Assembly: GCF_026768455.1 (NCBI RefSeq)
Contig: NZ_JAPPVQ010000005.1
Location: forward strand, 62,001 to 126,000
Origin: Candidatus Nitrosotenuis cloacae
GTDB lineage: Archaea; Thermoproteota; Nitrososphaeria; Nitrososphaerales; Nitrosopumilaceae
Reading direction: 5' to 3'
Length of the DNA stretch: 64,000 nt
Positions 11,866 to 47,986 of this stretch are shown in pieces. Position 1 is the stretch's first letter. Each line of letters opens with the position of its first letter. Below the pieces are notes generated by a model, which was not told the DNA's origin, made no database searches, and saw only the letters and a list, made by a program, of their open reading frames with translations. A program made the translations under genes and the position numbers.

Positions 11866-12650
11866 AACTGGGCCTCTTCTAGGGCTTTTTCGCAAAAACA
11901 TCTTCGTTCCTGCGGAATCTCGTCTGGAATGGACGTGAGTAGTCGCTTGGTGTTCTCCACGTTTTTCTTTAGGGTCTCAATCACCTCTTTTGCGGTGACT
12001 GGTTTTTCCGCCCAGACGTCATAGTCTGTGACAGTGCATATTGAGGCGTAGCACATCTGGGCCTCCCTTGCAAGCTGGCACTCTGGTACGAGAGTCATGC
12101 CGATTATATCTGCACCAGTCGATTTGTAGAATTTCGACTCTGCCTTTGTAGAGAACCTTGGGCCCTCTATGCAGACGTATGTGCGGTCAGTGTGTATTGG
12201 TATGTTCTGAGTCTTTGCTGCACGAATTATCGCGGACTGGAGCTCCGGGCAGAACGGGTCTGCAACTGAGATGTGTATGACTTTGCCCTCCTCGGAAAAT
12301 GTCCCCTTGCGTGATTTTGTAAAGTCCAGGAACTGGGTTGGCAGGACAAACGTGCCTGGTGGAAGTTCCTCTTTGAGGCTGCCTACTGCTGATGGGGCGA
12401 TGATTCGCTTTATTCCAAGCTGCTTGAATGCCCAGATGTTTGCTCTAAAGTTTATCATGTGTGGCGGGATGGTGTGTTTTTTTCCGTGCCTTGGCATGAA
12501 TGCTATCTTCTTTCCATTAAAGATTCCAATTGTGATGGAATCTGACGTCTTGCCGTATGGCGTCTCCACTGTGACCTCCTTTGCCTCCTTTAGGAGTCCC
12601 GAGTCGTAAATTCCGGTTCCGCCAAAGATTCCAATGTCTGCATGTTCCAT
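11862..12650 (-). CDS. mtnP: S-methyl-5'-thioadenosine phosphorylase
   Basis: Phosphorolyses methylthioadenosine (from polyamine synthesis) to adenine and methylthioribose-1-phosphate. Motifs of the PNP/MTAP family: [13 protein letters not shown] at the N-terminus, [20 protein letters not shown], and the substrate-specific [20 protein letters not shown]. The start is taken at 12650, where the ATG overlaps the APRT stop as TAATG. Pairing with adenine phosphoribosyltransferase makes sense: the adenine released is converted to AMP by the upstream gene. Confidence 0.92.
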
Positions 12651-15406: not shown

Positions 15407-17497
15407 CTATCGGGGCTTGCTGCGCTGATATTTGTTTAGGCCCGTCTGGGACGTCATGTTTTGGTGCTGTCTGATTCGCTCTGCAATGAGCCTGTAGAAT
15501 CCGCGGAATTGGTCCTTTGTCTTGTCTGAGAGGAACTCTGCTTCTCGCAGCGATATTTTTTCACAGATGTATCTTGCAATCTCTTCTATGTCAAAGTCGT
15601 TCCAGCCGTCCTCCCGGTGCTCGTGCCAGATGTCCTTGAGCGACTCGACGATTCCCTTCTTGCCCCTTGCAAGTATCTCCTCCTTTGAGAGGCTCCTAAA
15701 GCCCTCCTTTCTCAGCTTTATCTCGTAGGTCTGGTTTACTGCGTGCAGATAGTCGTCGGCAATTATGAGATCCTCGATCGATTCTATTGATTTTCCTCCC
15801 TGCTCAAGGTATAGGATCTGCATGTCTGTGAACTCGTTTGCCTTTAGGTACTCTGCGATCTTTTTGGACTCTGCAGTGTTATCTAACACGACAAAGACGT
15901 TGTGGCCGTGGTTTCGGTAGAAAATAGCAAGTGGCAAGACAGAGTTTTTGCTGTATGATGCCACCACGTTGAGGGGGTTCATGGATATATTTGGGTCCTC
16001 TAGGAACTTGTCAAATGCGTTGAGGTACATTGCATCGGACATGGTCTCAACTATGATGACCGGCCTTGAGTTTGTGCCAATCTCTCTGTCTACTATGGAC
16101 TCTACTAGTCCCCTTGAGAGGCCGTATAGAATCGGGATGAGCGTGGCGTCGTCGGCGTTCCAGTAGTCATAATGGATTCGGGAGAGGTGTCTTCTCTTGT
16201 CCAGTTCCACGACTAGGAGGTTTCCTGGGGTGTAGTCAAATATCATGAACGGTGAGTGCGTTGCGTACAGCACCTGGTTTGAGCCGGCCAGGTTTCTGAG
16301 CAGGTCGGATATTCCCATCTGCTGCGCTGGGTGTAGGTTCCTTGCAGGCTCGTCAAGAAGAAGGATTGCTTCTTTGAGCTCTGCCTTTTGTGTCTCTGCC
16401 GCAAAGTTTACGATAAACGAAAACGTCCACTTGAATCCCTCTGCACGTCTGCTGAGAAGGCCGGTGTTTGTCACGGTGCCGTCCTTGTGCACGTCGGATA
16501 TCACAACGCTCATGACGTTGCCTGGGTTGTACCTTAGGTCGACATGTATCGGATCTCCCTTCCATGCCGGGTTCAGCCTGTCAGTCAGTCTCCTGCTTGC
16601 GGTGTTTAGGAGTTTGATTAGTTTTGGCGGGCTGTTCTTGTACTCTTCAAGCTTTTCTGTGTCGAGCTCTGCAAGATAGAACAGATTTCTGACAGTCTCC
16701 GCCTTGTCGAACTCTTCTGCGTAGTCAAGTCCTTCTGGTCTTGTGACCTCCTTGATGTATTCATCCAGGTTTATGTTCCCGTAGATTTTCTTATAGTCTG
16801 AAAAATAGACGAATCTTGGATGCAGGTGTTCCATGATAAAGTTCTCAATTGCCGTCTTTTCGGTGGTTCCGACTAGCAGCTCATCGTATGTCTTTTCTGC
16901 ATCCTGGTAAAACTGCGACCACCCTGAGAGGATGTATGGCTCGTCTGCTGCAAGCATGTTCAGGGTATTGTTGAACATGGTCATTTCCTGCATGAACGTG
17001 GTCTTGTCCGTCGGGGCCGGGCCCTCAAAGAACTTGGTATCAAACTGGATTCGGATGTGGTTTGGGATGGTGGATATGAAGTTGAGGACCTTTTCGGTAT
17101 AGTTCTCCCACGAGTTGAGCGCCTTGTTTTTCTCGTCGCTTATCTTGACGCTTCCAAAGTCGTACTGGACCTGCGGGATCTTGTTGGTCCTAAATATTTT
17201 AAGGTGTGTGATTTCTGGCAAATGCGGGAATCGTTCTTTTATTATCTTGGTTTCATTTTTTGACAGTTCAAAGTCTCCCTCTGCCAAGATGACTTCGGAC
17301 TTGAGCTCCTCTGTCATCTCGTCGCAAAGGTCAAGTTCAGATACGCGCTCCTCCTTGTTGAGCAGGGTCAGTGCCTGAAGTATTGTGGTCTTACCTGATT
17401 CGTTTCTTCCAACAAACGCTGCAAGGTCCCCCACTTTGATTTCGCCTGAGTCGTGGATGCATCGGTACGCCCTGACTCTGAACTTTCGTAATCGCAT
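15407..17497 (-). CDS. OLD-type ATPase with TOPRIM-like C-terminus
   Basis: A 696-residue ABC-class ATPase. Walker A is FVGRNESGKTTILQAL near residue 30; Walker B is AILLLDEPARNLHPAQQM, followed by the H-loop VLYATHSPFMI. The C-terminal third fits a TOPRIM fold (PVIIVETMSDAMYLNAF, NVVASYSKNS, HNVFVVLDNTAE). The metal-binding acidics are only partly conserved (DNT instead of DxD). OLD proteins are nucleases of phage defence or repair. This copy sits in the core region, not on the casposon, and has no UvrD-type partner, so it is not a Gabija system. Confidence 0.78.
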   Translation of the reverse strand: MRLRKFRVRAYRCIHDSGEIKVGDLAAFVGRNESGKTTILQALTLLNKEERVSELDLCDEMTEELKSEVILAEGDFELSKNETKIIKERFPHLPEITHLKIFRTNKIPQVQYDFGSVKISDEKNKALNSWENYTEKVLNFISTIPNHIRIQFDTKFFEGPAPTDKTTFMQEMTMFNNTLNMLAADEPYILSGWSQFYQDAEKTYDELLVGTTEKTAIENFIMEHLHPRFVYFSDYKKIYGNINLDEYIKEVTRPEGLDYAEEFDKAETVRNLFYLAELDTEKLEEYKNSPPKLIKLLNTASRRLTDRLNPAWKGDPIHVDLRYNPGNVMSVVISDVHKDGTVTNTGLLSRRAEGFKWTFSFIVNFAAETQKAELKEAILLLDEPARNLHPAQQMGISDLLRNLAGSNQVLYATHSPFMIFDYTPGNLLVVELDKRRHLSRIHYDYWNADDATLIPILYGLSRGLVESIVDREIGTNSRPVIIVETMSDAMYLNAFDKFLEDPNISMNPLNVVASYSKNSVLPLAIFYRNHGHNVFVVLDNTAESKKIAEYLKANEFTDMQILYLEQGGKSIESIEDLIIADDYLHAVNQTYEIKLRKEGFRSLSKEEILARGKKGIVESLKDIWHEHREDGWNDFDIEEIARYICEKISLREAEFLSDKTKDQFRGFYRLIAERIRQHQNMTSQTGLNKYQRSKPR

Positions 17498-33895: not shown

Positions 33896-33979
33896 GCGGG
33901 GGTCGCCTAGCCTGGTAGGGCGTGGGATTGCTAATCCCATGTCCGCAAGGACCCGTGGGTTCAAATCCCATCCCCCGCG
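33896..33979 (+). tRNA. tRNA-Ser (anticodon GCT)
   Basis: An 84-nt tRNA. The acceptor stem GCGGGGG (33896-33902) pairs with CCCCCGC (33972-33978), followed by discriminator G. The anticodon loop TTGCTAA carries GCT, which reads AGC/AGU serine codons. A long variable arm (TGTCCGCAAGGAC) confirms a class II serine tRNA, and the T arm GTGGGTTCAAATCCCAT is normal. The 3' CCA is not encoded. No intron. Its last 7 nt are inside the target-site duplication of the casposon, so the gene stays intact. Confidence 0.95.
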
Positions 33980-33992
33980 CCTTTCTTTTGGG
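33973..33992 (+). repeat. casposon target-site duplication, left copy
   Basis: The sequence ccccgcgcctttcttttggg occurs here and, identically, at 47901-47920. It covers the last seven nucleotides of tRNA-Ser plus 13 nt of its downstream flank, and the terminal inverted repeat starts at the next base. The border is uncertain by one base because the flank also has a C. Confidence 0.93.
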
Positions 33993-34024
33993 GTAAAGAC
34001 AGAGAGTACTCATTTGACCTTTTT
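33993..34024 (+). repeat. casposon terminal inverted repeat, left
   Basis: Begins GTAAAGACAGAGAG and ends CATTTGACCTTTTT. Against the reverse complement of the right end it matches at 26 of 32 positions: the first 10 and last 12 bases are identical and the six mismatches lie in the middle. The outer block and the inner CATTTGACC block are the likely casposase contacts. Confidence 0.93.
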
Positions 34025-34136
34025 AGGGGGATTTTGATGAAAAGTCTAATCAACAACATTACGTATCAGAATCAGTTTGAAAAAGCACAATCTGTCATAT
34101 TACATACGAAAAAAGTTCCAAAACCAATTCGTACAG

Positions 34137-35720
34137 ATGGAATTAATGGATCCAGATCGATTTATCAGGTTTTTAGAAGAGTATGGAATACGCATAAGAA
34201 AAGAACGCTTAGAATCGCTTGAAGAAGAAGGGCTTTTACAACCCATCGTTCGTTTTGTGGTTCCAAAACAAGTAAGACGAAAAGGTGGAGGAATGATGAC
34301 TGGAACCGATGTTATGCAATGGTACTACAAGCATACCAAATTTATCGAATTTCCTAAGAAAGGTGATTATCAGCCTTGGAAAAAATTTGCTAGTAATTAC
34401 AAAAAAGGTGATCATTATGAGAAGAAAATATTCTACTATCACCCATTCCAATTGTTACAAGTTGAAAATATTCTAAAATATCAAAAATTCTATTTTTACT
34501 ACAAGGAATCATATACAGATAAACACCTTCAACGAATTCTACAAAATATCAAACTAGATAAAAAACATAGAAAAAAAACATTTCACATATCTCCTCTTAG
34601 TCAACCGGATAAGATTGGTTTCTTGATGTTACTTGAAGAAGCATATCGATTCCAAGCATTTGGAGGAATGTCCATACCAATGAATATGGACGGTAAAAGA
34701 AATTCGTTTGAAAAATGGATAAAATGGAGAAAAACGAAGTTCTCTGCCCAAAAATTGCTTGAGCAAAGCAGGCTCACTATCGACGAAGTCAAATGGTTGT
34801 ATGACTGGTTTGCTAGATCTTCCATCATGATGGATCCGTTAGAAAGATGGTATGATCTAACTCGAATCATGAAGACATCTGTTCTACAAAAACTGAAAGG
34901 TGATGCCTTGAAAGCCCAACTATACTACGACATTGTCAGAATGATTGCAATGTTTTTGTTTGATTTGGGACATAAAGTGGAAGAACCAGATCTACAATTT
35001 GATGAAATGAAAGGGAAATGGAAAAATGAGATCTATGGAGTTCCTGAATTTAACTATTCGTCAAAACAGACACAAAGAGGAATAATAAGATATTTTACTC
35101 GAAAAACTAATACTGTCGCATTTGTCCTAGTGGAAGGTAACACTGAAGTAAAAATCATAGAGAAGATTTTTGAAAAACTGGATATAGATCCAGTGGATGA
35201 TGGATACAATATTATTAATTATGATGGTCTTGCAAATCTCACTCCAATTAAACTACGCTCAATAATACAGATGTCTAACGCAGATAACATTCCGATTTTC
35301 ATAATTGCAGATAATGAATGTAATGCCAAGGATAAAATACAAAAAATCAAAAATTCAGTTGTATCAAAGTTTGATTATGAGATATGGAATAAAAGCTTTG
35401 AAGAGGATAATTTCGGTATTGATAAGGTTTTGAAATTGATTAACAAATATTTAGAAAAACATAAGGAGAGAATATCAAAAAATGATATCAAAACTAAGAT
35501 TAAGACTAATTCGCTAATTCGTGCCGTCGAATTGGCATATCGCGAAAAATATTATGGTGATATCTTTGTCAAAATACCCTCTAAACCCGATTTAGCGTTG
35601 GAATTGATTAGGAATAGATTAAGAAAAATATCACGTGGTAAAAAAATTGGCAAAGAATTACCAATAGAGCAATCGCTTCATAGGATGTTCAGATTTGTTG
35701 CAACGTATGAACCAGCCTAA
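34137..35720 (+). CDS. winged-helix/TOPRIM-domain protein, casposon cargo
   Basis: About 527 residues from ATG 34137 (MELMDPDRFIRFLEEYGIRI); an in-frame TTG at 34077 would add 20. The N-terminus looks like a DNA-binding helix pair of MerR type (KERLESLEEEGLLQPIVRF). A TOPRIM-like domain lies at ~330-400: FVLVEGNTEVKIIEKIF (Glu ~333), INYDGLANLTP and IFIIADNECNAKD (DNE where DxD is usual). There is no Walker A ATPase, unlike OLD proteins. First gene after the left terminal repeat. Probably a nuclease of unknown target, perhaps defence. Confidence 0.65.
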   Translation: MELMDPDRFIRFLEEYGIRIRKERLESLEEEGLLQPIVRFVVPKQVRRKGGGMMTGTDVMQWYYKHTKFIEFPKKGDYQPWKKFASNYKKGDHYEKKIFYYHPFQLLQVENILKYQKFYFYYKESYTDKHLQRILQNIKLDKKHRKKTFHISPLSQPDKIGFLMLLEEAYRFQAFGGMSIPMNMDGKRNSFEKWIKWRKTKFSAQKLLEQSRLTIDEVKWLYDWFARSSIMMDPLERWYDLTRIMKTSVLQKLKGDALKAQLYYDIVRMIAMFLFDLGHKVEEPDLQFDEMKGKWKNEIYGVPEFNYSSKQTQRGIIRYFTRKTNTVAFVLVEGNTEVKIIEKIFEKLDIDPVDDGYNIINYDGLANLTPIKLRSIIQMSNADNIPIFIIADNECNAKDKIQKIKNSVVSKFDYEIWNKSFEEDNFGIDKVLKLINKYLEKHKERISKNDIKTKIKTNSLIRAVELAYREKYYGDIFVKIPSKPDLALELIRNRLRKISRGKKIGKELPIEQSLHRMFRFVATYEPA

Positions 35721-35774
35721 TATTACAAACCGTGTATGATTAATGGTGTATCGTACAAATTAACTGAAAGAATT

Positions 35775-36989
35775 TTAATTTTGTAAATACTTTTCATGTA
35801 CGTCGATAAAAATGGGCTTTGTTTTTTCCCATAGAATACTTGTAATTTTTTCAATCAAAAGACTTGTTTCTACAGACTTATCGCCAAATTGATGCTTCAT
35901 CGTGTTTCGGAGTTGCTTACGTCTTTCATGTGGTGGGGGGTGATCTCCAACAGCACCATCTTTTTGCCCGCCCTTCCAATACCAATCCTCTTTTCCAGTT
36001 CTCAGAATGCATTCAGCTCTTTGAATTATTTCATCGCAACTAAACAATAATTCTGCGCCACTATAGCTAATTGGATCATTATGTCTATCTCTTAGTCGTG
36101 GTGCCAAAAGCATTAACGGTAGGCCTAGTGCGTCCGCTTCATATTCCTGAGGCCATTCAAACATTATGTTATATGCATCACCGATGTCAAGTAGTGTTTT
36201 TTGTGACTTCTCGCTATCTACATGTCGTAAAAGAATGTGCGAATATTCATGTCCCATTATGAAAACTTCCATAGCATATCTCAAATGTGATGCAAGATAA
36301 GAAAATGGTGCTTCCAGATAATATTGTGGTGCAGCTCTAACTTGACCGCGAATCAAATAAGCTAGAAACATTTGTTGAAATCTGTTCAAAATACTTGTCT
36401 CATTATTTGTTCTATCTAAAACCTGTTTTTCGTCAAAAATGAATTCGGCGTGATTGTCTTCTTTTGTATATGGAAAACATTGCGCGATGATCTTACTCAA
36501 TAGATTGCAACAATGAAATGTTTCAGTGCCGAAGACAATCAAATATTCATTATTTTTAAAGCCACCATAGCTAGCTGCATTTAGAGTTCTTATCGGAACA
36601 GTACCAAATGTTGGTCTTACTATATTCATGTTTAAATCTTGTAATGTATAATTAATTCCAGTCTGTTTATTCAGATATCCAAACGAAGATATGGTATTTT
36701 CAATGTCTTCAGCAAAATCCAGCAACATACTGTAATCACTTCGATTTTCATATTTACTAGGTAATTGCAACTTCTTCACTTTTTCGATATTTTCTTTCAT
36801 GTGTTTTCTCATTTCAGATATTTCTTCTGGACTTGAAAATTCTTTTTCAGTATTAAGTACGTCTTCTATCCAATTTTCCGCTTTTTTTTCATATAGATCT
36901 AATGTTTTTAGATATTGTTTGGGATCAATATTCGATTGTCGTAATGTCTGCTCTTGAAGATATTCTAAAAATTCATTAACAGTAGTCAC
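35775..36989 (-). CDS. HExxH metallopeptidase-like protein, casposon cargo
   Basis: A 404-residue soluble protein. A zinc-peptidase site is clear: GHEYSHILLRH (H247, E248, H251), then EYEADALGL (E282-D286), the third-ligand Glu pattern of gluzincin-type enzymes. The N-terminal 120 residues are helical and charged (EISEMRKHMKENIEKVKKLQ). No signal peptide or membrane segment, so it acts in the cytoplasm. Not recognised as ImmA/IrrE, whose HTH partner is absent. Faces the TOPRIM gene tail to tail. Confidence 0.6.
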   Translation of the reverse strand: MTTVNEFLEYLQEQTLRQSNIDPKQYLKTLDLYEKKAENWIEDVLNTEKEFSSPEEISEMRKHMKENIEKVKKLQLPSKYENRSDYSMLLDFAEDIENTISSFGYLNKQTGINYTLQDLNMNIVRPTFGTVPIRTLNAASYGGFKNNEYLIVFGTETFHCCNLLSKIIAQCFPYTKEDNHAEFIFDEKQVLDRTNNETSILNRFQQMFLAYLIRGQVRAAPQYYLEAPFSYLASHLRYAMEVFIMGHEYSHILLRHVDSEKSQKTLLDIGDAYNIMFEWPQEYEADALGLPLMLLAPRLRDRHNDPISYSGAELLFSCDEIIQRAECILRTGKEDWYWKGGQKDGAVGDHPPPHERRKQLRNTMKHQFGDKSVETSLLIEKITSILWEKTKPIFIDVHEKYLQN

Positions 36990-37021
36990 AATTAACTGAT
37001 TTCTGTAATAGTATATTGATT

Positions 37022-39700
37022 TTATTGTACCATGAAAAATAATAATTTTAATTTTATATTTTTTGAAATTTTATTACAGTTGTGAGTTTGAATGTTATTT
37101 TTACAATTCCATAATGTCTGTTTTGAAATTCCCACTTTCTTCACATCCTTAGGCTTCAAATCCAGTATTTTATCGCTAATTCTTCTAAACTTTTCATCCA
37201 AATCTTCCAAATTCTCATACACTTCATAACTCCCAGAACCAACTCCCACAATCTCAGACTCGTCCAGATTGTTGCTCTCTTTCCCAATATGGACAATCCC
37301 AGACACAGAAACATGCCTTCTCTGCAAAACTCCCACATCTCCTTCCAGTTTTGACTCGGAATGGTTCAGGTACTCCAAAAACACGTCCCAGAACGGCTTC
37401 CAGTATTCCTTTCCTTGGAATTTGTGCCTAGACTTGGAATTATAATCCACAAATTGCCCATAAACTGCATATCTTGCAGGCTTGACAAACGGAGCCAAAG
37501 GCTTGATCAGCTCTCCTGTCTCTGGATTGATGTGATTTGAGAATCCCAGTATGCAGAAATTAAAAGGCTTGAATTGGTTTCTGTAGTCTTCGTTTTTGTT
37601 AAATTCTGACAGTCTACCAAGCAGTCTTGGATTTGTTGCCACAAATTTTGATATTGCATACTTGTTTTCGTATTTGAAATACAGTTTTTCCAGCGTTGTT
37701 TTTCCATAGTATAGATTCAAAATATCATGCCAGATTTCCTTGTTCCAATCAAAATTCTCATTTTCATTTGAGAATGGATTCAACAAATGACCCAACCCAT
37801 GAGCAGAATAATCATTATCATCTATTGTGATTTCATTATTCTCAATTGAGTAAAGACAATATCTCTTTGCAGATATTCCATAAAACAATACATTATCTCT
37901 CTCTATCTTGAAAATATCTGAATCAAAATTGTAAGGATTTAATCCCTGAAAGAACTCTTGAATTTCCTTTGTGTGTTCTGGCGGAATCATCATGGAATCA
38001 GTATCACAGTATGCATGAGTTTTTCCATGTTTAGATAATAGAATCTCAGTTGTAGCTAGTAACAATCTGGATGCTGATGTAATCGATATGGCAATAATAG
38101 GATTAAACATGAATCCTAACTTTTCTATCTTGGTCTTGTTTTGTTTGAAATGTTCAATACCGTAAACGTCAACTGGAATTTTCTTTGATTCATCCTGTGT
38201 TGTAATTTCCACAAAGATTCCATAGCTGATTGCATTAACTATTATTTTGATGATTTGCTGTCTTGGGTCTTTTTTCTGTTTTAGTTCCTGTCTGTATTCG
38301 ACTAGTTTTTTGAACAGATCATCCTTGTATGGATTGATTTGGATTCCCTGAATGTTGATGGATTTCAGTCCTTTTTGCATCCCATCTGGGAAGAACTTGT
38401 ACGCATGAATGATTTTTGGAGTCTTGCCAGTGTAGAGTTTTGAGGTTAGGACATCAGCAATGCTGTACCATAACGGAGCCTTTGAGGCAAGATGGTTGAC
38501 TCCTATATTCCAGACGTGCTTGTTTCCGTATCTTGCACGTACAGGCAAGACATCAGACTCAGGCTCGATTTGTACAATTCCCTGCAATCTAGTCCAGATT
38601 TCCGGCTTTTGCACGTCCTGTATGGTGAATTTGTCAATGAATTGAGTAATTTCATGCGTAGCCTCACGATACTCGATTCTCTCTGCGATTACAAACTTCC
38701 AGAGGTTTTGCAGGGTGCAGACAGTTGGATACATTGAGAGAAAGTCAAGGACATCTACCCGTGTTGGAGTTTTCCGAATCTTGCACTCTGTCCTTCCGCC
38801 AAAATAACATGACATTACATGACCTAGAACATCTGGTGAGAATTTCAGGTTCTTGTTCAGAAACGAATCGACTCCGATCATTTTGAGAAATTCCTTCCCA
38901 ATTGATGCAGGAGTGTATGCTTTTGTAATTGGAATTTTCAATCCATAGGAATCAAACTCTTTTTTGGCATTTTGATACAATGAGTATGTGGAATCTACAT
39001 CATTGATGCAGTACCGGATGTATTGTGGTGTAATCTTGCCGTGTTCTTTGACTGACTGCTTTTTGTATTCCGTCTTGAATGTCTCACATGCCGATTCCAG
39101 CGAATGCTTTCTGTCTGTCAGTGCATGACATAGTGTACGCAGGTCGAGCAAGTTTCCCCGAAAGTTATTGTTCTTGTTCTTTGTACTGCCAAACTCGATA
39201 AATGACATTGTACTTGTGATGTGGGTAACATGCAATCTAGGATAGTCGAGATTCTTTGATAGTACCAATGAGAATCCGCCTTTTCTTCTGAATCTGGCGT
39301 TTGTTGACTTTATTGCGATTCTGGACAAATCAAATGGAAGATTGAATCCGACACACAATGATTCCAAATCATAGACTTCATGAAGAAAGATTTGCCTGAA
39401 TTGTTCTAGTGTGTACAGAGTGATTTTGTTTCTCTTGGAAAATTGCTTTAGGATTCCAAGTTCCTTGTTTTTTACTATTTGTGAGTCGTAGAATAATGCA
39501 TGGTGATCCAGTTTTCCATGCTGGAATATTTTGAAATATCCAAACTTTAGGTTCTGGAACAAATCTGTCGTGGTTTCAGTGTCAAAGACTAGAATCCTGT
39601 CAAATTTGGTCTGCATCTCAGGCTTGGATGCGGGTAATTTCGTACCTAGTTTGAGCCTAGGTTTTGTGTAGGCACGGATTGCAATTGGTTCAGGATTCAT
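37022..39700 (-). CDS. polB: family B DNA polymerase of casposon
   Basis: An 892-residue polymerase presumed to replicate or repair the element. The exonuclease is intact: Exo I FDTET (D40, E42), Exo II FNLPFD (N120, D124), Exo III YCINDVD (Y230, D234). The polymerase is intact: motif A DFLSMYP (D319), motif B KIIVNAISYG (K485), motif C CDTDS (D566, D568), and KRY at 612. Thaumarchaeal casposon polymerases are classed with protein-primed PolB; I cannot confirm TPR inserts by eye. Residues 845-886 form an HTH-like tail that matches the Cas1 C-terminus. Last gene of an HTH-HNH-polB operon. Confidence 0.93.
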   Translation of the reverse strand: MNPEPIAIRAYTKPRLKLGTKLPASKPEMQTKFDRILVFDTETTTDLFQNLKFGYFKIFQHGKLDHHALFYDSQIVKNKELGILKQFSKRNKITLYTLEQFRQIFLHEVYDLESLCVGFNLPFDLSRIAIKSTNARFRRKGGFSLVLSKNLDYPRLHVTHITSTMSFIEFGSTKNKNNNFRGNLLDLRTLCHALTDRKHSLESACETFKTEYKKQSVKEHGKITPQYIRYCINDVDSTYSLYQNAKKEFDSYGLKIPITKAYTPASIGKEFLKMIGVDSFLNKNLKFSPDVLGHVMSCYFGGRTECKIRKTPTRVDVLDFLSMYPTVCTLQNLWKFVIAERIEYREATHEITQFIDKFTIQDVQKPEIWTRLQGIVQIEPESDVLPVRARYGNKHVWNIGVNHLASKAPLWYSIADVLTSKLYTGKTPKIIHAYKFFPDGMQKGLKSINIQGIQINPYKDDLFKKLVEYRQELKQKKDPRQQIIKIIVNAISYGIFVEITTQDESKKIPVDVYGIEHFKQNKTKIEKLGFMFNPIIAISITSASRLLLATTEILLSKHGKTHAYCDTDSMMIPPEHTKEIQEFFQGLNPYNFDSDIFKIERDNVLFYGISAKRYCLYSIENNEITIDDNDYSAHGLGHLLNPFSNENENFDWNKEIWHDILNLYYGKTTLEKLYFKYENKYAISKFVATNPRLLGRLSEFNKNEDYRNQFKPFNFCILGFSNHINPETGELIKPLAPFVKPARYAVYGQFVDYNSKSRHKFQGKEYWKPFWDVFLEYLNHSESKLEGDVGVLQRRHVSVSGIVHIGKESNNLDESEIVGVGSGSYEVYENLEDLDEKFRRISDKILDLKPKDVKKVGISKQTLWNCKNNIQTHNCNKISKNIKLKLLFFMVQ

Positions 39701-40025
39701 GGTACGTGTTTTCCCCTATCTCCCGAACTAGGTCAGCTAATCCGATTAGAAGACATGCGGTTTTCTTTTTCTTTCTCTTGTTTTTCTTTGACCAGTCTTT
39801 AGGCCAGTTGTACTGTTTTCTTGAAAGTCTGCCATGACAGATTCTACACAATGCAATTACAAAATCGCTGTTGCTTTTTCCACCAACATGATGATATTCC
39901 AAATCAAAAGGATCAACATGCCCACAAATCACACAAGACCCTTGGGCATCAAAGAATTGCTTTAGCCATTTGTTTTCCTTGATCAATTGCTCAATAGAAT
40001 CAAAATAATCACCCAAATCAGTCAC
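39690..40025 (-). CDS. HNH endonuclease-like protein of casposon
   Basis: A 111-residue protein with an HNH-type zinc/active site: SCVICGHVDPFDLEYHHVGG (C-x2-C, then HH), followed by ALCRICHGRLSRKQY (C-x2-C-H). The C-terminus is very basic (SKKNKRKKKK). HNH genes next to polB are a standing part of casposons. It overlaps the HTH gene upstream by 4 bases and polB downstream by 11, so the three are translated from one mRNA. Confidence 0.85.
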   Translation of the reverse strand: MTDLGDYFDSIEQLIKENKWLKQFFDAQGSCVICGHVDPFDLEYHHVGGKSNSDFVIALCRICHGRLSRKQYNWPKDWSKKNKRKKKKTACLLIGLADLVREIGENTYHES

Positions 40026-40525
40026 CTAGAATAAATTGAGAAAAACTCGGCATCCTCTCGTCTTTCCAGTATCGCAAAAATCTTTACAGTGTTGGTTTCA
40101 AGAGTGTGAATTTTGCCGTAAATGTCCGTGATTCTTGTTTTCTTGAATGGTAACAATGCGGATCTGTCATGCGGCAATCTGCCTATTGCGGAATGATATT
40201 GTCCGATTGTTGTTGCACGTCGATTACCTCTGACTGTGATGTAAATCTCTATTCCGTCTTTGTAACTGCGAACCCTTCTTAGAAGATTGTCTGATTTTTT
40301 TGCAACCAGCCTGCGATTCTTTTTGTATAGTGCAGAACCAACATATTTTTTGACCGTAGATGGAGAAATTCCGTATTGTTTGGATGCAGTTTTGATTGAT
40401 TTGCCGTCACGCATTTCATCTAAAACATGAAGTGAGTCTTCGTATTTTGCAAGTTGTTTAGGCGATAGTGAATCTAGATTAGTTGTCCAAGGTTTTGTTT
40501 TCCTTGGACGTCTTTTTGAATTCAT
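40022..40525 (-). CDS. helix-turn-helix protein of casposon
   Basis: A 167-residue basic protein. Residues ~30-65 hold a Hin/homeodomain-like HTH (LDEMRDGKSIKTASKQYGIS, PSTVKKYVGSALYK). The C-terminal half has beta character (GIEIYITVRGNRRATTIGQY, RITDIYGKIHTLETNTVKIF). First gene of the polB operon, facing the divergent winged-helix/cas1 operon over a 94-bp promoter gap, so it may regulate both or bind the element's ends. Confidence 0.75.
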   Translation of the reverse strand: MNSKRRPRKTKPWTTNLDSLSPKQLAKYEDSLHVLDEMRDGKSIKTASKQYGISPSTVKKYVGSALYKKNRRLVAKKSDNLLRRVRSYKDGIEIYITVRGNRRATTIGQYHSAIGRLPHDRSALLPFKKTRITDIYGKIHTLETNTVKIFAILERREDAEFFSIYSR

Positions 40526-40567
40526 TTACAATGCCAGAAAAAACCCATCTAATAGGATGGAAAATGA

Positions 40568-40655
40568 CAAAGTGTACTACCCTTAAATCGTGCGTAGTTC
40601 TTTCTAATCTAGGCACAAAATGGGCAAGAAATTAGATTTCAAAGTGTACTACCCT
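40568..40655 (+). repeat. pair of 16-bp direct repeats at divergent casposon promoter
   Basis: CAAAGTGTACTACCCT occurs at 40568-40583 and, without a mismatch, at 40640-40655, 72 bases apart. The first copy is in the gap between the divergent HTH and winged-helix genes; the second is inside the first codons of the winged-helix gene. The layout suits a pair of operators for autoregulation. Confidence 0.6.
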
Positions 40656-41276
40656 CATAGAGACTATCTGCTAGCCATGAAGGTTCTCACGGTACTAGCA
40701 ACCCGCTCCGAAATATCCAGCAATGTGATATCCCGTCTTTTGGCAGATACAAGACATGATTCCTATCCTCACAGTAGAGTCAAGAACACCTTGATTCGGC
40801 TTGCAGATTCCGGATATGTCAGACAAAAGCAAATTGAGCAAAAGAAACAGATACAGAACAACTGGACTATTACGCCATCTGGAATTCTAACATACATGTT
40901 ATTTACAGACGACAAAAACTATAGAGAGTTAATTGATAGTAACTCTGAGAGGACGTTTTTTAGGACTATATTGATTTTAGATAAAAGTGAAAAAAGAGGA
41001 TATGTTGACAATCTCATCGAATTACTCAAAAAGTCCAGTAATAATCCTCTTGAAATGGAGAAGATTGCACTTTCATGGTATTCAGATATCCGAAAACGTA
41101 TCAAAGACCTCAAAATAAATTCTGAAAAATATCCAGAATTGTACAAGCTCAGAAAAGAAATTAAAAATGATGACATGATGTTGCCTGTATTTTTGTCCAA
41201 ACCCCATAATGCCTCCAAGCCACGTTCTACATTTGGTACCACATTTGTTGACTCTATCTTTCAGAGATACTCTTAA
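40620..41276 (+). CDS. winged-helix regulator of casposon
   Basis: A 218-residue protein whose first ~90 residues are a winged helix (HRDYLLAMKVLTVLATRSEI, SSNVISRLLADTRHDSYPHS, RVKNTLIRLADSGYVRQKQI). The remainder is helical and charged. It lies 10 bases upstream of cas1 on the same strand. Likely a transcription regulator of the cas1 operon; it could also assist the casposase. No recognised family beyond the fold. Confidence 0.7.
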   Translation: MGKKLDFKVYYPHRDYLLAMKVLTVLATRSEISSNVISRLLADTRHDSYPHSRVKNTLIRLADSGYVRQKQIEQKKQIQNNWTITPSGILTYMLFTDDKNYRELIDSNSERTFFRTILILDKSEKRGYVDNLIELLKKSSNNPLEMEKIALSWYSDIRKRIKDLKINSEKYPELYKLRKEIKNDDMMLPVFLSKPHNASKPRSTFGTTFVDSIFQRYS

Positions 41277-41286
41277 GATCTAGTGA

Positions 41287-42519
41287 ATGATTCAAGAATT
41301 ATTGAATCCGTTACTGATTTCAGGATTTGGAACCTCGATCAATGTTGAAAAAAGAAAACTGGTAATCCAGAACAAACTAAAAAATGAAATTCATGAATTC
41401 TATCCTCACAGAATCGAACACGATTCCATAATAGTTGACGGTCACACAGGACACATTACATTCGAGTCAATGAGGTGGCTCACAAAGCACAATGTCTCAT
41501 TGTCGCTTTTGAACTGGGACGGGAACCTTCTCTCAGTCACGCTTCCAGACTCGCCAATATCAGGCAAACTGCGCATAAAGCAGTATCAAAAGTACCTTGA
41601 TGCCAAAACTAGGCACAAAATAGCCACGGAATTTGTCAAATCCAAGATAGGTTCCTCGCTTAATCTGCTCAAAGAACTATCAAAATTCCACGACTTTGAT
41701 TTTGAGAAAGCAAAACAAGGGTTTGATTCTGAGACAAGATTCTTTTTGGGAAAACCAGTCCACAGCATCCAAGACATTTTAGGATATGAGGGAAGAATAG
41801 CACGATTCTACTTTGATGCGTTACAAAAAATATTTGAAAAAATTGCACCCCAGTTCCACTTTACCAGCAGGTCAAACTATGACCACAAAAGAGCCGACCA
41901 TGCATCTGATGAAATCAATGCACTGTTCAATTATGGATATGCAATACTGGTCTCAGAGACAAGAAAGGCAATCAACTCTGTAGGTCTTGATGCAGAGATT
42001 GGCTTTTTGCACGAGATCTTATCAAGCAGGACTCCATTAGTTTATGACTTGCAGGAATTGTTCAGATGGATAATCGACTATTCAATCATACAATTACTGG
42101 AAGACCACAAACTCAAAAAGTCTGACTTTGTCGTTACTGAAAACTATCACATCAGATTGAGGGAAAACACCGCAAAACTGTTGATTGAAAAGATTCGATT
42201 CAACTTTAATCATAAAATGCCTTACAGGAAAAAGAATTTCACATACCAAAACATACTGTACGACCAGATACAACAGATTGCCAATTTTATTTCAGACAAA
42301 AGAAAAGACATCGAGTTTGTCGTCCCACATTGGGTGATTAACCGCGATGATAACAGTATGTTGAGGAATCGAATTCTATCTTTAACACCGGATCAAAGAA
42401 GAAAACTAGGAATCAACAAATCCACTTTGTGGTATATGAAACGGAATCTAAATGACGGCAAGACCGTCAAGATATACGGCAAGATTCTGTCCAAACTTGA
42501 TGAAATAGACAGAAGTTAG
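41287..42519 (+). CDS. cas1: Cas1 family casposase (integrase)
   Basis: A 410-residue Cas1 that inserts the casposon by its terminal repeats. The N-terminal beta domain has the Cas1 pattern TFESMRWLTKHNVSLSLLNW. The catalytic triad is intact: E168 in ILGYEGRIARFYF, H242 in GLDAEIGFLHEIL, D254 in TPLVYDLQELFR, with the DEINALFNYGYAIL helix between. Residues 363-404 form a C-terminal HTH extension (RRKLGINKSTLWYMKRNL), which known casposases use to bind DNA. Neighbours are PolB and HNH rather than cas2, which separates it from CRISPR Cas1. Confidence 0.95.
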   Translation: MIQELLNPLLISGFGTSINVEKRKLVIQNKLKNEIHEFYPHRIEHDSIIVDGHTGHITFESMRWLTKHNVSLSLLNWDGNLLSVTLPDSPISGKLRIKQYQKYLDAKTRHKIATEFVKSKIGSSLNLLKELSKFHDFDFEKAKQGFDSETRFFLGKPVHSIQDILGYEGRIARFYFDALQKIFEKIAPQFHFTSRSNYDHKRADHASDEINALFNYGYAILVSETRKAINSVGLDAEIGFLHEILSSRTPLVYDLQELFRWIIDYSIIQLLEDHKLKKSDFVVTENYHIRLRENTAKLLIEKIRFNFNHKMPYRKKNFTYQNILYDQIQQIANFISDKRKDIEFVVPHWVINRDDNSMLRNRILSLTPDQRRKLGINKSTLWYMKRNLNDGKTVKIYGKILSKLDEIDRS

Positions 42520-42520
42520 A

Positions 42521-42681
42521 ATCTTGACGGAATCTAAATGGAATATCGATAAAAATCGTCTAAACAGGCACGATTTAGCTCCATCAAGACTTTTTGTTTA
42601 GATAAACAGGTGTGACGTTTAGACTGCTTTTGCATCTAGATGGAACCTAAACAGGCACGGAATTTAGACTGGATTTAGTCT
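42521..42681. repeat. iteron-like repeat cluster behind cas1
   Basis: The 202-bp gap between the convergent cas1 and PIN-like genes is full of short repeats. TAAACAGG occurs at 42561, 42603 and 42648 (spacings 42 and 45). GA(C/T)GGA(A)(T/C)CTAAA occurs at ~42527, ~42640 and inverted at ~42572-42586. TTTAGACT occurs twice and AGACT/AGTCT form an inverted pair at ~42666-42681. It resembles an iteron origin or protein-binding array and is not a CRISPR. Confidence 0.6.
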
Positions 42682-42721
42682 GTATGGGTGTTCTGTATAG
42701 ATCACTCATCCATGCACTGAA

Positions 42722-43168
42722 TTATCTAATTTCTGATGGATGCATTATTCTCAATCCATACGTTCTTGTCAAGCCGCTTTCATCAAGTCTTGTTTTCAAT
42801 CGTCCATCAGCTGACACCAATATTGCATTTGTTGATACTGCCAATCTAATCAGATACACATCATCTGGAGGAATACTTTGTTCGTTTTGTAATGTTGCAG
42901 GAGTATTATCGGCAATCTTGAGCTTGCCACCATACATTATCATCTCAAGTAATTTTGCAGTAGCTGAGGCGGATCTAACCGTGCTTTCTAATCGCTTTAG
43001 CATGGATCTGTACTTTTCTAATAATTCTACAGTACAATGGACATAATCACATCTTCTAAGTATGTCATTTAACAATCCCAAGCATGTGGGGTCGCCATCA
43101 CCAGTTTCATTTTCAACTCTGGCAGAAAATTCCATAATGTTTTCATCTAGAATAAGTTCCAGCGTCAT
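42722..43168 (-). CDS. PIN-like nuclease partner of AAA ATPase
   Basis: A 148-residue protein with PIN-domain character: early Asp in ELILDENIME (D8), acidic helix residues near E48/E51, then PDDVYLIRLAVSTNAILVSA (D102, D103) and DGRLKTRL (D121). The order and spacing fit the PIN acidic cluster, although the central part is short. It overlaps the ATPase gene by 4 bases and is encoded after it. PIN proteins are usually RNases of toxin type. The coupled ATPase suggests a sensor-effector pair. Confidence 0.68.
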   Translation of the reverse strand: MTLELILDENIMEFSARVENETGDGDPTCLGLLNDILRRCDYVHCTVELLEKYRSMLKRLESTVRSASATAKLLEMIMYGGKLKIADNTPATLQNEQSIPPDDVYLIRLAVSTNAILVSADGRLKTRLDESGLTRTYGLRIMHPSEIR

Positions 43169-44415
43169 TTTTTCTTCAAATTTTCAATGAATTTGTCTAT
43201 ATGTCCGATATTTACTTCAAAAAATCCTTTCATTCCACCTTTTACCTCGCCCCTTTCAGTCACTTCTAGTTTTGAAGTCTTGGTAGTACCATCAATTTTG
43301 TCAAAATAATACACTGTAAGATCCTCAGGCAGAATTTTACCATCCATTACTCCTTCCAACAGCCCAATCAGAATGTGTTCGCTATGAGTAGTAATTATGA
43401 ATTGATGATTTTCTTTGGTTGAATCATCTATCAAAACTCTAGAGAGGCTTGTTTGTGATGCAGGGTGAAGAGAGATTTCAGGCTCATCGATGAAGATAGT
43501 CGCATTAGGTTGTGCCATGGCAAGCTGCATAAATAAAAAGATTGACTGATTCAAACCAAATCCTTCGTTTGTAATCCCATATTCTCCGTATTTGTCCTTG
43601 TTAACTATTCTTGCACGTTTTTGCGGTAAGTTTCTCACATGAATGCTGACATCCGGAATAACCTGACGAGCAAACTCGGTGATCTTTTCTTGTATGTCAT
43701 ATTGGTGCGCCATTGTAGTAACTGACATTTCCGCCTGTCGTGTTACACCCTTACTAGTCTGAATTTTTGCAACTTCATCTAATAACTGATATGATGATTG
43801 ATCAAATCCCCGTGTGGCAGGAATTAGATAACATAGTTCTAATTGGTTTGTGAAGGTATTCAGAAAATTGTTTAATGCATCATGTACTCTGTCGTATAAT
43901 TCTCCATCATTTGATGAACCACCGCCAATCATTATGAAATTTTTTAAGCTCAGATTTTTTCTAAAATGAAATTGTCCTCCTTCAAAATCCAATCGTTGTT
44001 CTTGCGGGGTCACATTTCGTTTTAACGATTCTGCAAACCTATATTTTGTACTTCCATCAATCTCGTAGTCTATTCTGTTTAACCCGCGTTCGTTGAATTC
44101 AAATTGAAATTTGTATGAAATATTTTCAACATCTAATTGAGTAGCTATATCTTTAGTGGGAATCATATTTCCCTTGATCATAATTTTGATTGTATCATCT
44201 TGTGATTGTCTTGATTTTACTGTCTGAAAATCATCCAGATTAATCAAATCCCCATTCCATTGGATTTGAGTATCGGATTGTTTTAGTAATGCAATGGCTT
44301 GTGATAAACTTGATTTTCCAGAGCCATTTTTTCCAATAAAAACGCTAATTTTGCCTAATTTTAGGCTCGTATCCAGATGGCTTTTGAAATTATGAATGTA
44401 AAGGTGGCTAAGCAT
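43165..44415 (-). CDS. AAA15/AAA21-type ATPase, casposon cargo
   Basis: A 416-residue ABC-class ATPase of the RecF/SMC-like kind used in defence systems. Walker A is GKNGSGKSS (28-36), the D-loop region is in FGLNQSIFLFMQLAMAQP, Walker B is ATIFIDEPEISLHPAS, then FIITTHSEHILIGL. It has no TOPRIM or other nuclease at the C-terminus; the nuclease seems to be the separate PIN-like protein downstream. This is like the two-gene ATPase/effector layout of Septu or PARIS, but the effector differs. Confidence 0.82.
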   Translation of the reverse strand: MLSHLYIHNFKSHLDTSLKLGKISVFIGKNGSGKSSLSQAIALLKQSDTQIQWNGDLINLDDFQTVKSRQSQDDTIKIMIKGNMIPTKDIATQLDVENISYKFQFEFNERGLNRIDYEIDGSTKYRFAESLKRNVTPQEQRLDFEGGQFHFRKNLSLKNFIMIGGGSSNDGELYDRVHDALNNFLNTFTNQLELCYLIPATRGFDQSSYQLLDEVAKIQTSKGVTRQAEMSVTTMAHQYDIQEKITEFARQVIPDVSIHVRNLPQKRARIVNKDKYGEYGITNEGFGLNQSIFLFMQLAMAQPNATIFIDEPEISLHPASQTSLSRVLIDDSTKENHQFIITTHSEHILIGLLEGVMDGKILPEDLTVYYFDKIDGTTKTSKLEVTERGEVKGGMKGFFEVNIGHIDKFIENLKKK

Positions 44416-44470
44416 GAATTAATGAATGATTTAATGAATTATAATTTTGTTGTATCATGCACCTTGGGTC

Positions 44471-44890
44471 TTAATTAACTGGGGCTCCACCATTTTGTAA
44501 TTTCAGAATCTTTTTACACTTTTCAAATGCTTCATTGTTTTTGTTGGTAAATGCTAGGTCTATGCTATTCAGGAGATCTTGTTTAATCAGAATATCAAAA
44601 CTATCTACATACGTTCGATATATCATGACTAGTTTTTTTAATTCTATCACTTTTTTGTTTGTTCTTCCAGCCAATCTTGGTATGGCCATCAAAGCAAGCA
44701 CCATCAGTATCATGATAATCGTGACAGTTATTTCTTGATTAATGACATTTGGATATTTTATAAAATTTGTTAGTCCTATTAATGCTGCAAATATTGCCAC
44801 TACGATGTAAACAACATTAAGCAATTCTGTCGGTTTTGCATAATACAAATTTAAAAAATCGATTACCTGTTCAGAGAAAGATGTTGTCAT
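44471..44890 (-). CDS. small two-span membrane protein, casposon cargo
   Basis: A 139-residue protein with two membrane segments (LLNVVYIVVAIFAALIGLTN and EITVTIIMILMVLALMAIPR) and a soluble C-terminal helix region of about 60 residues. It lies 55 bases upstream of the AAA ATPase on the same strand and may share its transcript, which would add a membrane component to the ATPase/PIN pair. No family recognised. Confidence 0.62.
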   Translation of the reverse strand: MTTSFSEQVIDFLNLYYAKPTELLNVVYIVVAIFAALIGLTNFIKYPNVINQEITVTIIMILMVLALMAIPRLAGRTNKKVIELKKLVMIYRTYVDSFDILIKQDLLNSIDLAFTNKNNEAFEKCKKILKLQNGGAPVN

Positions 44891-44956
44891 TCTATTACCA
44901 CATGTTTCAAAATTATTAACATTTCTAATTTTCTAATAATTATGTAAATATCAATA

Positions 44957-45901
44957 ATGCAATCATTTCTTCTCAAAACAAAAACCAAAAAATCATTCCT
45001 AGAAAGATTATCGTCATTAAAATATTCCACAAGAGAAAACTATCAGGCGTCATTACACAGATTTGAGCAGTTTTGTAATTCCAATTATCAGGGAAGAACA
45101 AGTGAAAACATCATACATGAGCTAAAATCCATCAAACCAGAAGAGCGAGATGATGCGTATTTTGGACTATTGCAGGACTTTGTGAACTGGCTTGTCTCGC
45201 TTGGTCTTTCCCATGCCACAGTCAACATGTACTTTCAGGTTGTAACATATTATTTTTCATACCATGGCATAAGGGTTCATCATATTGACATCAGGCAGAA
45301 TGTCAAAAGACCAAAAAAGATCAAGGAAAAACTCCACGTCCTAACCAAAGAGGAAATACAAAGAATATTCGAATTTGCACCTCAAAAACGAAAGATGCTG
45401 TATCTGACATTGATTGGTTCCGGCATGAGGATACGGGAATGCGTTGCACTGCGAAGAAAAGACTTTGATCTTAGTTTCCCAAAGCGCATTAAAATCGAAA
45501 TTCCAGCACAGTTTACAAAGGCACAGACTGCCCATTCCACATTTGTATCAAAGGAGGCTGCCAGATATCTAAAGCCACATTTGGAATCATTACAATACAA
45601 TGATTTGGTATTTGCCACAAACCACACTCCATATCATGCATCTATGACAGAAATCGAGGCGTTTACCCGATATCGTAGCAGGGCAGGACTGACTGGACAA
45701 TACGAGTCAACAGGCAGGCATCATATCTCCTTGCACTCGTTTAGGTCGTATTTTTTCACAAGAGCCAGACGTGTTCATGATACTGACATTGCCCATGCGA
45801 TGGTGGGACATACTACCTATCTTGATATGTATGACAGGAAGGATGATGAGGAAAAGTTAGAGTTGTATCTTACGGTAGAATCCGAATTACGAATTAACTA
45901 A
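44957..45901 (+). CDS. tyrosine recombinase on casposon
   Basis: A 314-residue site-specific recombinase. The N-terminal SAM-like DNA-binding domain covers ~10-105 (RENYQASLHRFEQFCNSNYQ). Catalytic residues are R158 (GSGMRIRE), K188 (QFTKAQ), H260/R263 (SLHSFRSYF), H285 (MVGHTTYL) and Tyr292 (DMYDRK). Full length and uninterrupted, so not the split type. The ends of this element are casposon ends, so the gene is either cargo, a resolvase for element dimers, or a remnant of another integration system. Confidence 0.87.
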   Translation: MQSFLLKTKTKKSFLERLSSLKYSTRENYQASLHRFEQFCNSNYQGRTSENIIHELKSIKPEERDDAYFGLLQDFVNWLVSLGLSHATVNMYFQVVTYYFSYHGIRVHHIDIRQNVKRPKKIKEKLHVLTKEEIQRIFEFAPQKRKMLYLTLIGSGMRIRECVALRRKDFDLSFPKRIKIEIPAQFTKAQTAHSTFVSKEAARYLKPHLESLQYNDLVFATNHTPYHASMTEIEAFTRYRSRAGLTGQYESTGRHHISLHSFRSYFFTRARRVHDTDIAHAMVGHTTYLDMYDRKDDEEKLELYLTVESELRIN

Positions 45902-45966
45902 AGCAATTGCACAAAATAGAATGATTTTATTTCAATTATGATGGGCAAAGTTAATCTGTAATCTCA

Positions 45967-46839
45967 ATGAAACTTTCCAATATGGATGTACAACTTCCAA
46001 AAGAACCAATTATAGATCAAATCGTTAAGGTAAAGACGGGGCTTAAAGGAGAGAATGTAATTTACATTAAACATGAAATTCAAAACAATCAAAAACTAGA
46101 TCACAAAATTTATGGAGAGTATGCTGTCAAACAATTGTCTCGGCAACTTCGTAATGCAACTATAAAATTCCACATTCTTACAGATGTACAATTCATTAAA
46201 TGGCAATCTGAGACCTCGTATTTGCATAAACCGACATTTTCAGATTATTCTAAGAACAGCATAACGGATCCTGAAGAATATCTATATTCTTCTAAAGACG
46301 CAGTAACCAAAGGAAATTTTGCAATTTCAGTGAATAATGTAAATGGCGTGTTTTTTGTTCTCGATAATACTCATTCTGTCATCACATCAAAGGATGTTGA
46401 ATTGAAAGTTTGGGAGACATGGAAGGAACCCATTCCACCATCAGAACTCATTATAAAAAGGAAGAAATTTGTTTCCGCTAAAGAAGAATTGGAGAAAGCA
46501 GAAAAAAATTTAGAGCGAAATCCTGAGGACGTGTTCAACTATTTAAGAACCGCAATAGATCTATCGATTCAGGGACAATTCGGATTTCAGAAGATCAAAA
46601 ATATGCCAGAGTTTGTTGCCGATGCAGAAAAATACAATTTTCCACTACCATCGTACAGTTTGATTAGTGCAATTTTTTCGGAAGGTAACAAGAGATTACA
46701 CGTTGGTAAAGTCGCAACCAAATTTGATGCTAAAAATTCCATTCAGATAGTCAGAGATTTTGTCGAAGATCTAGCCAAGATAGACATTTCTCAGGAACAA
46801 ATTAAAGATTTCAAGAATAAATCAAAGTCAGTGGCGTGA
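45967..46839 (+). CDS. hypothetical protein, casposon cargo
   Basis: A 290-residue soluble protein. The first ~140 residues are beta-rich with TYR/LYS-rich loops (GENVIYIKHEIQNNQKLDHK, GNFAISVNNVNGVFFVLDN). The last ~120 are helical (AKEELEKAEKNLERNPEDVF, NYLRTAIDLSIQGQFGFQKI, IFSEGNKRLHVGKVATK), a pattern that recalls DUF4145/HEPN-like helical domains, but the HEPN R-x4-6-H motif is not clear. Function unknown. The following membrane protein gene is 51 bases downstream on the same strand. Confidence 0.6.
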   Translation: MKLSNMDVQLPKEPIIDQIVKVKTGLKGENVIYIKHEIQNNQKLDHKIYGEYAVKQLSRQLRNATIKFHILTDVQFIKWQSETSYLHKPTFSDYSKNSITDPEEYLYSSKDAVTKGNFAISVNNVNGVFFVLDNTHSVITSKDVELKVWETWKEPIPPSELIIKRKKFVSAKEELEKAEKNLERNPEDVFNYLRTAIDLSIQGQFGFQKIKNMPEFVADAEKYNFPLPSYSLISAIFSEGNKRLHVGKVATKFDAKNSIQIVRDFVEDLAKIDISQEQIKDFKNKSKSVA

Positions 46840-46890
46840 TGAAATTAAAGGACAAGACATTGATATATTGGTGACTACATTCATGTTTGT

Positions 46891-47640
46891 TTGTACGATC
46901 CATCTGAGTTAGGTCTTGCCTCCGTAATTACTGCGGTACTTACGGCCATAGGTCTGATAATTGCAATAATAATCAACACGGTTCAATTGAGAGGACAAAA
47001 AAATCAGTTGTTTATTTCTAATTTTTCAGAAATAACAGATCATGTGGGTGACGATGTTACAAAAGAATATAGAAGGTGGTTATTCTACGACGAAGAAAAA
47101 AAGACATTATTTGAGAAATTCAAAAAAGAATATGGTTTAGAATATGTTAAAAAATCGAACGAGGAAAAATCACAATACAAAGAAATTGAAAAGGCAGTTT
47201 GGCATTTAGCGTCACGTTATGATAGATTTGGGTTTATTTTAGATCAGGATAAAGAAATGAGGAAAAAAATATCAGATTATCACGGTCAAGTTATCAGTAA
47301 GTTATGGTTAGCATTGGAACCTCTTATTGACATGAGAGAAGACATAGAGCGAGATGGAGCCTACAAATATTTCAGAAAGATAGGTAGGAAAGCAATTAGT
47401 GCAAACTACTCTTCAAAAGAATCAGGCATAATTGATAAAAAACATCTACGACTCACAGCAATCGCAATAGTGGCAGGTGCATTTATCACAATATTCTATA
47501 ATTTGTTTGACATTTGGTTGACCCCCATTCTTCAGGCTCCGGAACAAGCAACTCTCAAAACTTCAGTATCAGGAGTATTAGCAATTATCGCAGGTTTAAT
47601 TATTTACAAGTATTACACCAAATCTCTAAAGCTAAGTTAG
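46891..47640 (+). CDS. DUF4760-like membrane protein, casposon cargo
   Basis: A 249-residue protein (TTG start). One N-terminal membrane segment (VITAVLTAIGLIIAIIINTV) is followed by a cytoplasmic helical domain with basic/acidic helices (KEYRRWLFYDEEKKTLFEKF, WHLASRYDRFGFILDQDKEM). Two C-terminal membrane segments follow (IAIVAGAFITIFYNLFDIWL and SGVLAIIAGLIIYKYY). The N-terminal TM plus helical domain resembles DUF4760 proteins. It is the last gene before the right terminal repeat. Confidence 0.62.
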   Translation: MYDPSELGLASVITAVLTAIGLIIAIIINTVQLRGQKNQLFISNFSEITDHVGDDVTKEYRRWLFYDEEKKTLFEKFKKEYGLEYVKKSNEEKSQYKEIEKAVWHLASRYDRFGFILDQDKEMRKKISDYHGQVISKLWLALEPLIDMREDIERDGAYKYFRKIGRKAISANYSSKESGIIDKKHLRLTAIAIVAGAFITIFYNLFDIWLTPILQAPEQATLKTSVSGVLAIIAGLIIYKYYTKSLKLS

Positions 47641-47815
47641 ATATTTTACGATAAATCCACCCTTTCATAATTAGTCTTAACAAAGAGCAAGATCCCTCAA
47701 ACCTAAACCTTTGATGTTTTTTGATCATATGTCATCAGCACGCTATCGTTTTGTTATCATGTGATGAAAGATTGTCCAAGTCAAATTTTTGATCAGATTT
47801 AACATCTGAGTCATC

Positions 47816-47842
47816 AAAAAGGTCAAATGAACCGTCTCTGTC
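47816..47842 (-). repeat. second, subterminal copy of the casposon terminal repeat
   Basis: Read on the minus strand this segment is GACAGAGA, four variable bases, then TCATTTGACCTTTTT. Both blocks and the spacing equal the left terminal repeat exactly, and it lies 27 bases inside the right terminal repeat. The 175 bases before it (47641-47815) hold no ORF, only AT-rich sequence with GATCA/TCATC-type short repeats. Confidence 0.8.
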
Positions 47843-47868
47843 TGTGTTAATTTCTCAGATTTCGATAA

Positions 47869-47900
47869 AAAAAGGTCAAATGGCACATCCCTGTCTTTAC
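47869..47900 (-). repeat. casposon terminal inverted repeat, right
   Basis: Read on the minus strand it begins GTAAAGACAGGGAT and ends CCATTTGACCTTTTT, matching the left repeat at 26 of 32 positions. The target-site duplication follows directly at 47901. Confidence 0.93.
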
Positions 47901-47920
47901 CCCCGCGCCTTTCTTTTGGG
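47901..47920 (+). repeat. casposon target-site duplication, right copy
   Basis: Identical to 33973-33992 over 20 bases. It is the second copy of the tRNA-Ser 3' end generated on insertion; the rest of the tRNA gene is absent here. Confidence 0.93.
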
Positions 47921-47986
47921 AATATAGTTAGGAAGTCAGATTTTGCACTTTTTCGGACTAAAATGAGGGAGGGTTTTTGATTAGGG

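Follow-up and report, generated by a model that had tools for sequence, protein, structure and literature searches.

Why should the DNA polymerase and the integrase of one mobile element end in the same small domain? The question is raised by a 64,000-nucleotide stretch of Candidatus Nitrosotenuis cloacae (contig NZ_JAPPVQ010000005.1, positions 62,001 to 126,000 of the forward strand; hereafter the window, whose numbering we use), the genome of an ammonia-oxidising-type archaeon. The window holds a casposon of ~13.9 kb, running from terminal inverted repeat (TIR) to TIR at 33990–47903, with open reading frames and motifs intact at the sequence level. Its polymerase, PolB (892 aa, 37022–39700, minus strand), carries Exo I FDTETT at residue 39, motif A DFLSMYPT at 319, motif B at 485 and motif C YCDTDS at 564; its integrase, the casposase Cas1 (410 aa, 41287–42519, plus strand), carries YEGR at 167, FLHE at 240 and DLQE at 254. 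The tails of the two proteins, PolB residues 834–891 (37028–37201, minus strand) and Cas1 residues 353–409 (42343–42513, plus strand), are one genuine shared domain of helix-turn-helix (HTH) type. The explanation that we favour, at slightly less than even probability, is that these homologous tails have diverged in their targets, and that the PolB tail would read a class-specific inner part of the TIR, coupling replication to integration via neighbouring TIR blocks.

A preliminary description of this locus had aligned PolB residues 845–886 with Cas1 residues 363–404, and both its coordinates and its counts are right: the match is ungapped, with 18 identities in 42 positions and a BLOSUM62 score of 75. 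As a control, Cas1 was shuffled 60 times, and its best 42-residue diagonal against PolB then reached 29.5 ± 4.9 (maximum 39); PolB and Cas1 with their tails removed reached 30. Pairwise BLASTP of the two proteins gave E = 2e-5, with the alignment confined to the tails. A search of the six-frame translation of the host genome with a profile built from eight Cas1 tails returned two matches, Cas1 (4e-31) and this PolB (1.5e-8), and a PolB-tail profile returned the same two only (8.9e-26 and 3.1e-11). Profile–profile comparison with hhalign aligned the Cas1 and PolB tails over 48 columns with a probability of 98.1 and an E-value of 7.5e-14, and for both profiles the best PDB sequence match is the Methanosarcina mazei casposase, 6OPM (4.2e-7 with the Cas1 tails, 0.0033 with the PolB tails).

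AlphaFold2 predicts four helices in each tail, at residues 834–845, 850–856, 860–871 and 880–891 of PolB (block means of the predicted local distance difference test about 60–86) and at residues 353–364, 368–374, 378–390 and 394–409 of Cas1, modelled as an isolated tail. Once the alignment offset of 482 is applied, the second and third helices of the two tails fall together and the first and fourth overlap, placing both tails in the same helix register, as expected if the polymerase shares the HTH-like tail of the transposase. The conserved part of both tails consists of the putative recognition-helix residues. We know of no structure of any PolB tail. A PIP (PCNA-interacting protein) box at the PolB end was also considered, and the final FF is not kept in relatives.

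In the relatives compared, which belong to the same archaeal family and order, all PolBs of this type with a complete C-terminus carry the tail, as do all casposases of this type whose end is intact; the outcomes that the preliminary description had named as refuting it did not occur. In five family 1 casposons from these hosts (loci L166–L169 and L171) neither Cas1 nor PolB gave a tail match, the four free-standing host PolBs of genomes G316 and G332 lack the tail, and searches of phages, plasmids and viral contigs turned up no relative of this PolB. Two scans of 300 genomes each argue against the tail being a general HTH found on many proteins, as all matches below about 1e-6 among those with checked frames were casposon Cas1, PolB or remnants of these; weaker matches include HTHs that look MerR/IS607-like by eye, such as L200. 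Stand-alone tail reading frames (L067, L068, L069 and L194) were rejected as a separate gene, since the longer ones keep PolB fragments, and are taken as polB remnants. Sequence, profile and predicted structure thus show the shared four-helix HTH tails to be an old trait of this casposon family.

The element is a family 2-type casposon. Its Cas1 matches Pfam PF01867 (4.8e-58) and is homologous from end to end, tail included, to the M. mazei casposase 6OPM (2.3e-74), whose own tail is unresolved in the crystal (PMC6977970); in a tree that contains one named family 2 reference, Cas1 groups with 6OPM, and family 1 is split off at 100/100. Like the family 2 casposons MetMaz-C1 and AciBoo-C1 (PMC4046053) and the thaumarchaeal NitNCS1-C1 (PMC6563490), the element has a C-terminal HTH on both Cas1 and PolB, HNH and HTH genes between them, a tRNA target, TIRs and a target-site duplication (TSD). 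It is unlike them in its Nitrosopumilaceae host, its own inner TIR blocks, its ~900-aa PolB, an element-specific gene (HTH2) and a tyrosine integrase gene, and in that no HEAT domain was found in a Pfam search of the element proteins. Family 1 casposons of Thaumarchaeota (NitAR1-C1; L166–L169, L171) share the host family and the pairing of a Cas1 integrase with PolB, but have a ~600-aa PolB with strong PF03175 matches and a ~360-aa Cas1 in a separate 100/100 clade. Family 1 is marked by a protein-primed PolB and a compact Cas1 with no added domain, and its elements insert within the 3' portion of a protein-coding gene, EF-2 for instance. Membership of that family was rejected on the tailed 892-aa PolB and 410-aa Cas1, and the target here is a tRNA-Ser gene.

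The shared tail itself was already known, since Krupovic et al. (2014, PMC4046053) reported that family 2 Cas1 ends in an HTH and that the PolB C-terminus has a similar one, a statement repeated in PMC9939771; the preliminary description had believed it undescribed in PolB. Our literature search found no function assigned to the PolB tail, and it is here that the ends of the element become informative.

We compared TIRs across relatives with confirmed duplications, some loci contributing one TIR end only. The TIRs are bipartite: all share the outer block GGGG-N-A(A/T)AG, and the inner block depends on the class. Four mutually unrelated inner blocks were found: TTTGAC(C) in class A (twelve loci including this casposon), GARATGTCACAA in class B (L153), ACCCACG in class C (tandem arrays of genomes G394 and G437) and GATTTTGCACTATTT in class D (L060, L066, L152). 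The M. mazei TIR, GGGATATAGGTAACTCAAAAAAACGCAACGC (PMC10359463), has the same outer block as this element (GGG-ATATAG) followed by a fifth inner block. The recognition helix of Cas1 is GINKSTLWY/H in all Nitrosopumilaceae TIR classes A–D, and the PolB helix changes with the class: QTLWNxK in A, RREFYRLK in B, SRSNLIAIQK in C and PRRTYYDWK in D. As its helix is nearly fixed, the Cas1 tail most likely serves a constant integration task, which may be target or outer-end binding, or complex formation.

The history of the elements separates the two genes further. The cas1 and polB trees conflict: the Cas1 proteins of this element and of L056 fall in a starred clade with class D casposases, and their PolBs fall in the class A clade, which is supported at 100/100. 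Approximately unbiased tests on Cas1 reject a single clade for class A (p = 2.7e-8) and, separately, for class D (4e-40). The mosaic is clear in the pair L056 (class A in both TIR and PolB) and L060 (class D in both), in which Cas1 is 77% identical, PolB 36% and HTH1, a protein whose gene travels with polB, 31%. Together, this mosaic and the discordant trees indicate that the inner TIR block goes with a polB-HNH-HTH1 module and not with cas1. A further mixed locus, L160 (159–6493), combines a class A polB with a casposase that belongs to the class C clade. The TIR of this locus was looked for and not found, the contig stopping at cas1.

From this correlation over few classes, sequence comparison suggests that the inner TIR is read either by the PolB tail or by the co-inherited HTH1, and we infer that the Cas1 and PolB tails have diverged in what they read. 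That HTH1 or the HNH-type protein is the reader, with the PolB tail a passenger or bound elsewhere, for instance to the iterons, seems rather unlikely to us. Both genes lie between polB and cas1, the HNH-type nuclease gene at 39690–40025 (minus strand; weak Pfam DUF968/HNH match) and HTH1 at 40022–40525 (minus strand; weak Pfam HTH matches), and relatives show that they travel with it. They share the class split of PolB, at 42–65% within class A and 27–39% to classes B, C and D, and HTH1 is of a DNA-binding type. However, the helix region of HTH1 is nearly identical in B, C and D although the inner blocks differ, whereas the PolB tail is different in each, so the inner block is better matched by the PolB tail.

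Equally doubtful, in our estimate, is that the tails are protein–protein or non-specific DNA-binding modules, joining polymerase to casposase for example, in which case the match to TIR class would be a lineage signal of the polB module. This would agree with the isolated M. mazei HTH domain, which showed no detectable DNA binding and is disordered in the crystal (PMC6977970), with the small number of independent events and with the absence of any significant match of the tails to a Pfam HTH family; against it, the putative recognition-helix residues are what both tails conserve, and deleting the tail of M. mazei Cas1 abolished integration (PMC6977970). Least probable, and indeed unlikely, is the proposal of the preliminary description that both tails are recruited to one TIR or iteron sequence, since, although the two tails are homologues whose putative recognition helices have a TLW..K core in common in class A, the Cas1 helix stays constant across differing inner blocks, the PolB helix departs from it in classes B, C and D, the iterons are not common to the elements (three copies of TAAACAGG here, a 22-bp repeat × 6.3 in L053, a 21-bp repeat × 5.5 in L158) and the casposase requires only five terminal TIR nucleotides (PMC6614799). 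Replication may nevertheless be coupled to integration at the element ends, as that proposal also supposed.

Divergent targets for the two tails would allow such coupling in the following way. Cas1 would join the outer TIR ends to the tRNA target, and the PolB tail, bound to the inner TIR block, would bring the polymerase to the element ends that Cas1 joins, so that replication of the element would be recruited to the ends along with PolB. Adjacent TIR blocks, and not competition between the two proteins for a single site, would then couple replication and integration. The wider form of this idea, which we regard as a conjecture appreciably short of even odds, is that the polymerase of a self-synthesizing transposon recognises the ends through a domain of its own, copied from the integrase tail and redirected to the inner TIR; the ends would be swapped along with the replication module while the integrase stays, and the TIR would consist of an outer Cas1 site and an inner PolB site. 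The Aciduliprofundum boonei casposase requires just five terminal TIR nucleotides, and the authors of that work asked why a long TIR is kept if the integrase uses five, suggesting excision or replication for the remainder (PMC6614799). A bipartite TIR whose inner block matches the polB module is a concrete candidate answer to their question.

Several points weigh against this explanation. The TIR classes number only four, the TIRs are known for a single clear mosaic event, and the class changes required on the Cas1 tree are just three, the minimum. HNH and HTH1 travel with polB, so that the inner-block reader could be either, and the lack of detectable DNA binding by the isolated M. mazei domain counts here too. 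The casposases of genomes G437 and G332 bear tails, yet neither genome has such a PolB, which means that the Cas1 tail needs no PolB partner. Confidence in the structure models of the tails is moderate, and a Foldseek search with the Cas1 tail gave no significant fold match; with these and the Pfam result in mind, the label HTH rests on the helix pattern and the literature.

The element lies at the 3' end of a tRNA-Ser(GCT) gene (33896–33981, plus strand; ARAGORN), its target. Both ends have 35-nt inverted TIRs: the left, GGGGTAAAGACAGAGAGTACTCATTTGACCTTTTT, at 33990–34024 (plus strand) with its inner block CATTTGACCTTTTT at 34011–34024, and the right, GGGGTAAAGACAGGGATGTGCCATTTGACCTTTTT, at 47869–47903 (minus strand) with its inner block at 47869–47882. 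The 18-nt target duplication, CCCCCGCGCCTTTCTTTT, is found at 33972–33989, overlapping the tRNA 3' end, and at 47900–47917, where its initial 4 nt overlap the TIR (both plus strand); it is part of a perfect 21-nt direct repeat (33972–33992 and 47900–47920). A search of the entire host genome for the TIR pattern gave just two occurrences, those at the casposon ends. TIRs were also sought beside cas1 and the iterons and none was found there, the actual TIRs being 13.9 kb apart.

The family 2 core gene set comprises Cas1, PolB, HNH and two HTH proteins, one of which has HEAT repeats; of these, Cas1, PolB and HTH1 are present here and the HNH match is weak. The interval between polB and cas1 holds the HNH, HTH1 and HTH2 genes; HTH2 (40620–41276, plus strand) is winged-HTH-like by eye, with no Pfam match and no relative found. 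Family 2 polymerases are of the RNA-primed (PolB3-like) kind, and on this point the signals for the present PolB are mixed. A low-confidence model of it matched Pol alpha, E9 and Pol II in a structure search, with no phi29-type polymerase among the best 50 matches; the CDTDS motif is as in the A. boonei group (PMC7544198), and PF03175 also scores 47 bits.

Iteron arrays are element-specific. The three copies of the 8-bp motif here lie downstream of cas1 at 42561–42655 (plus strand; starts 42561, 42603 and 42648), those of L053 at 7909–8047 and those of L158 behind polB at 15531–15645; such arrays, beside cas1 or behind polB, are possible replication or control sites. Within the casposon we also observed a tyrosine integrase gene (44957–45901) and defence-like cargo, comprising an OLD-like TOPRIM protein and an AAA_15 ATPase adjoining a weak PIN-like gene (34077–35720, 42722–44415).

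Among the relatives, L069 contains a 4.35 kb derivative (7818–12165) bounded by TIR and TSD that keeps the PolB tail alone, in an 88-residue open frame. Tandem arrays of ~19–25 kb casposons with common 14–16 nt duplications occur in G394 (L157, L158, L159 and L174–L176) and G437 (L155, L179 and L180), an intact polB being found once in the former and not in the latter. A partial second TIR copy lies ~60 bp inside the right end of the present element (47815–47845), and lone inner blocks also recur near the ends of L053, L065, L067 and L069. Immediately past the right target duplication, at 47918–47960, a class D TIR, GGGAATATAGTTAGGAAGTCAGATTTTGCACTTTTT, faces right; it is the sole such end in the host genome and is a solo end left by a lost tandem neighbour.

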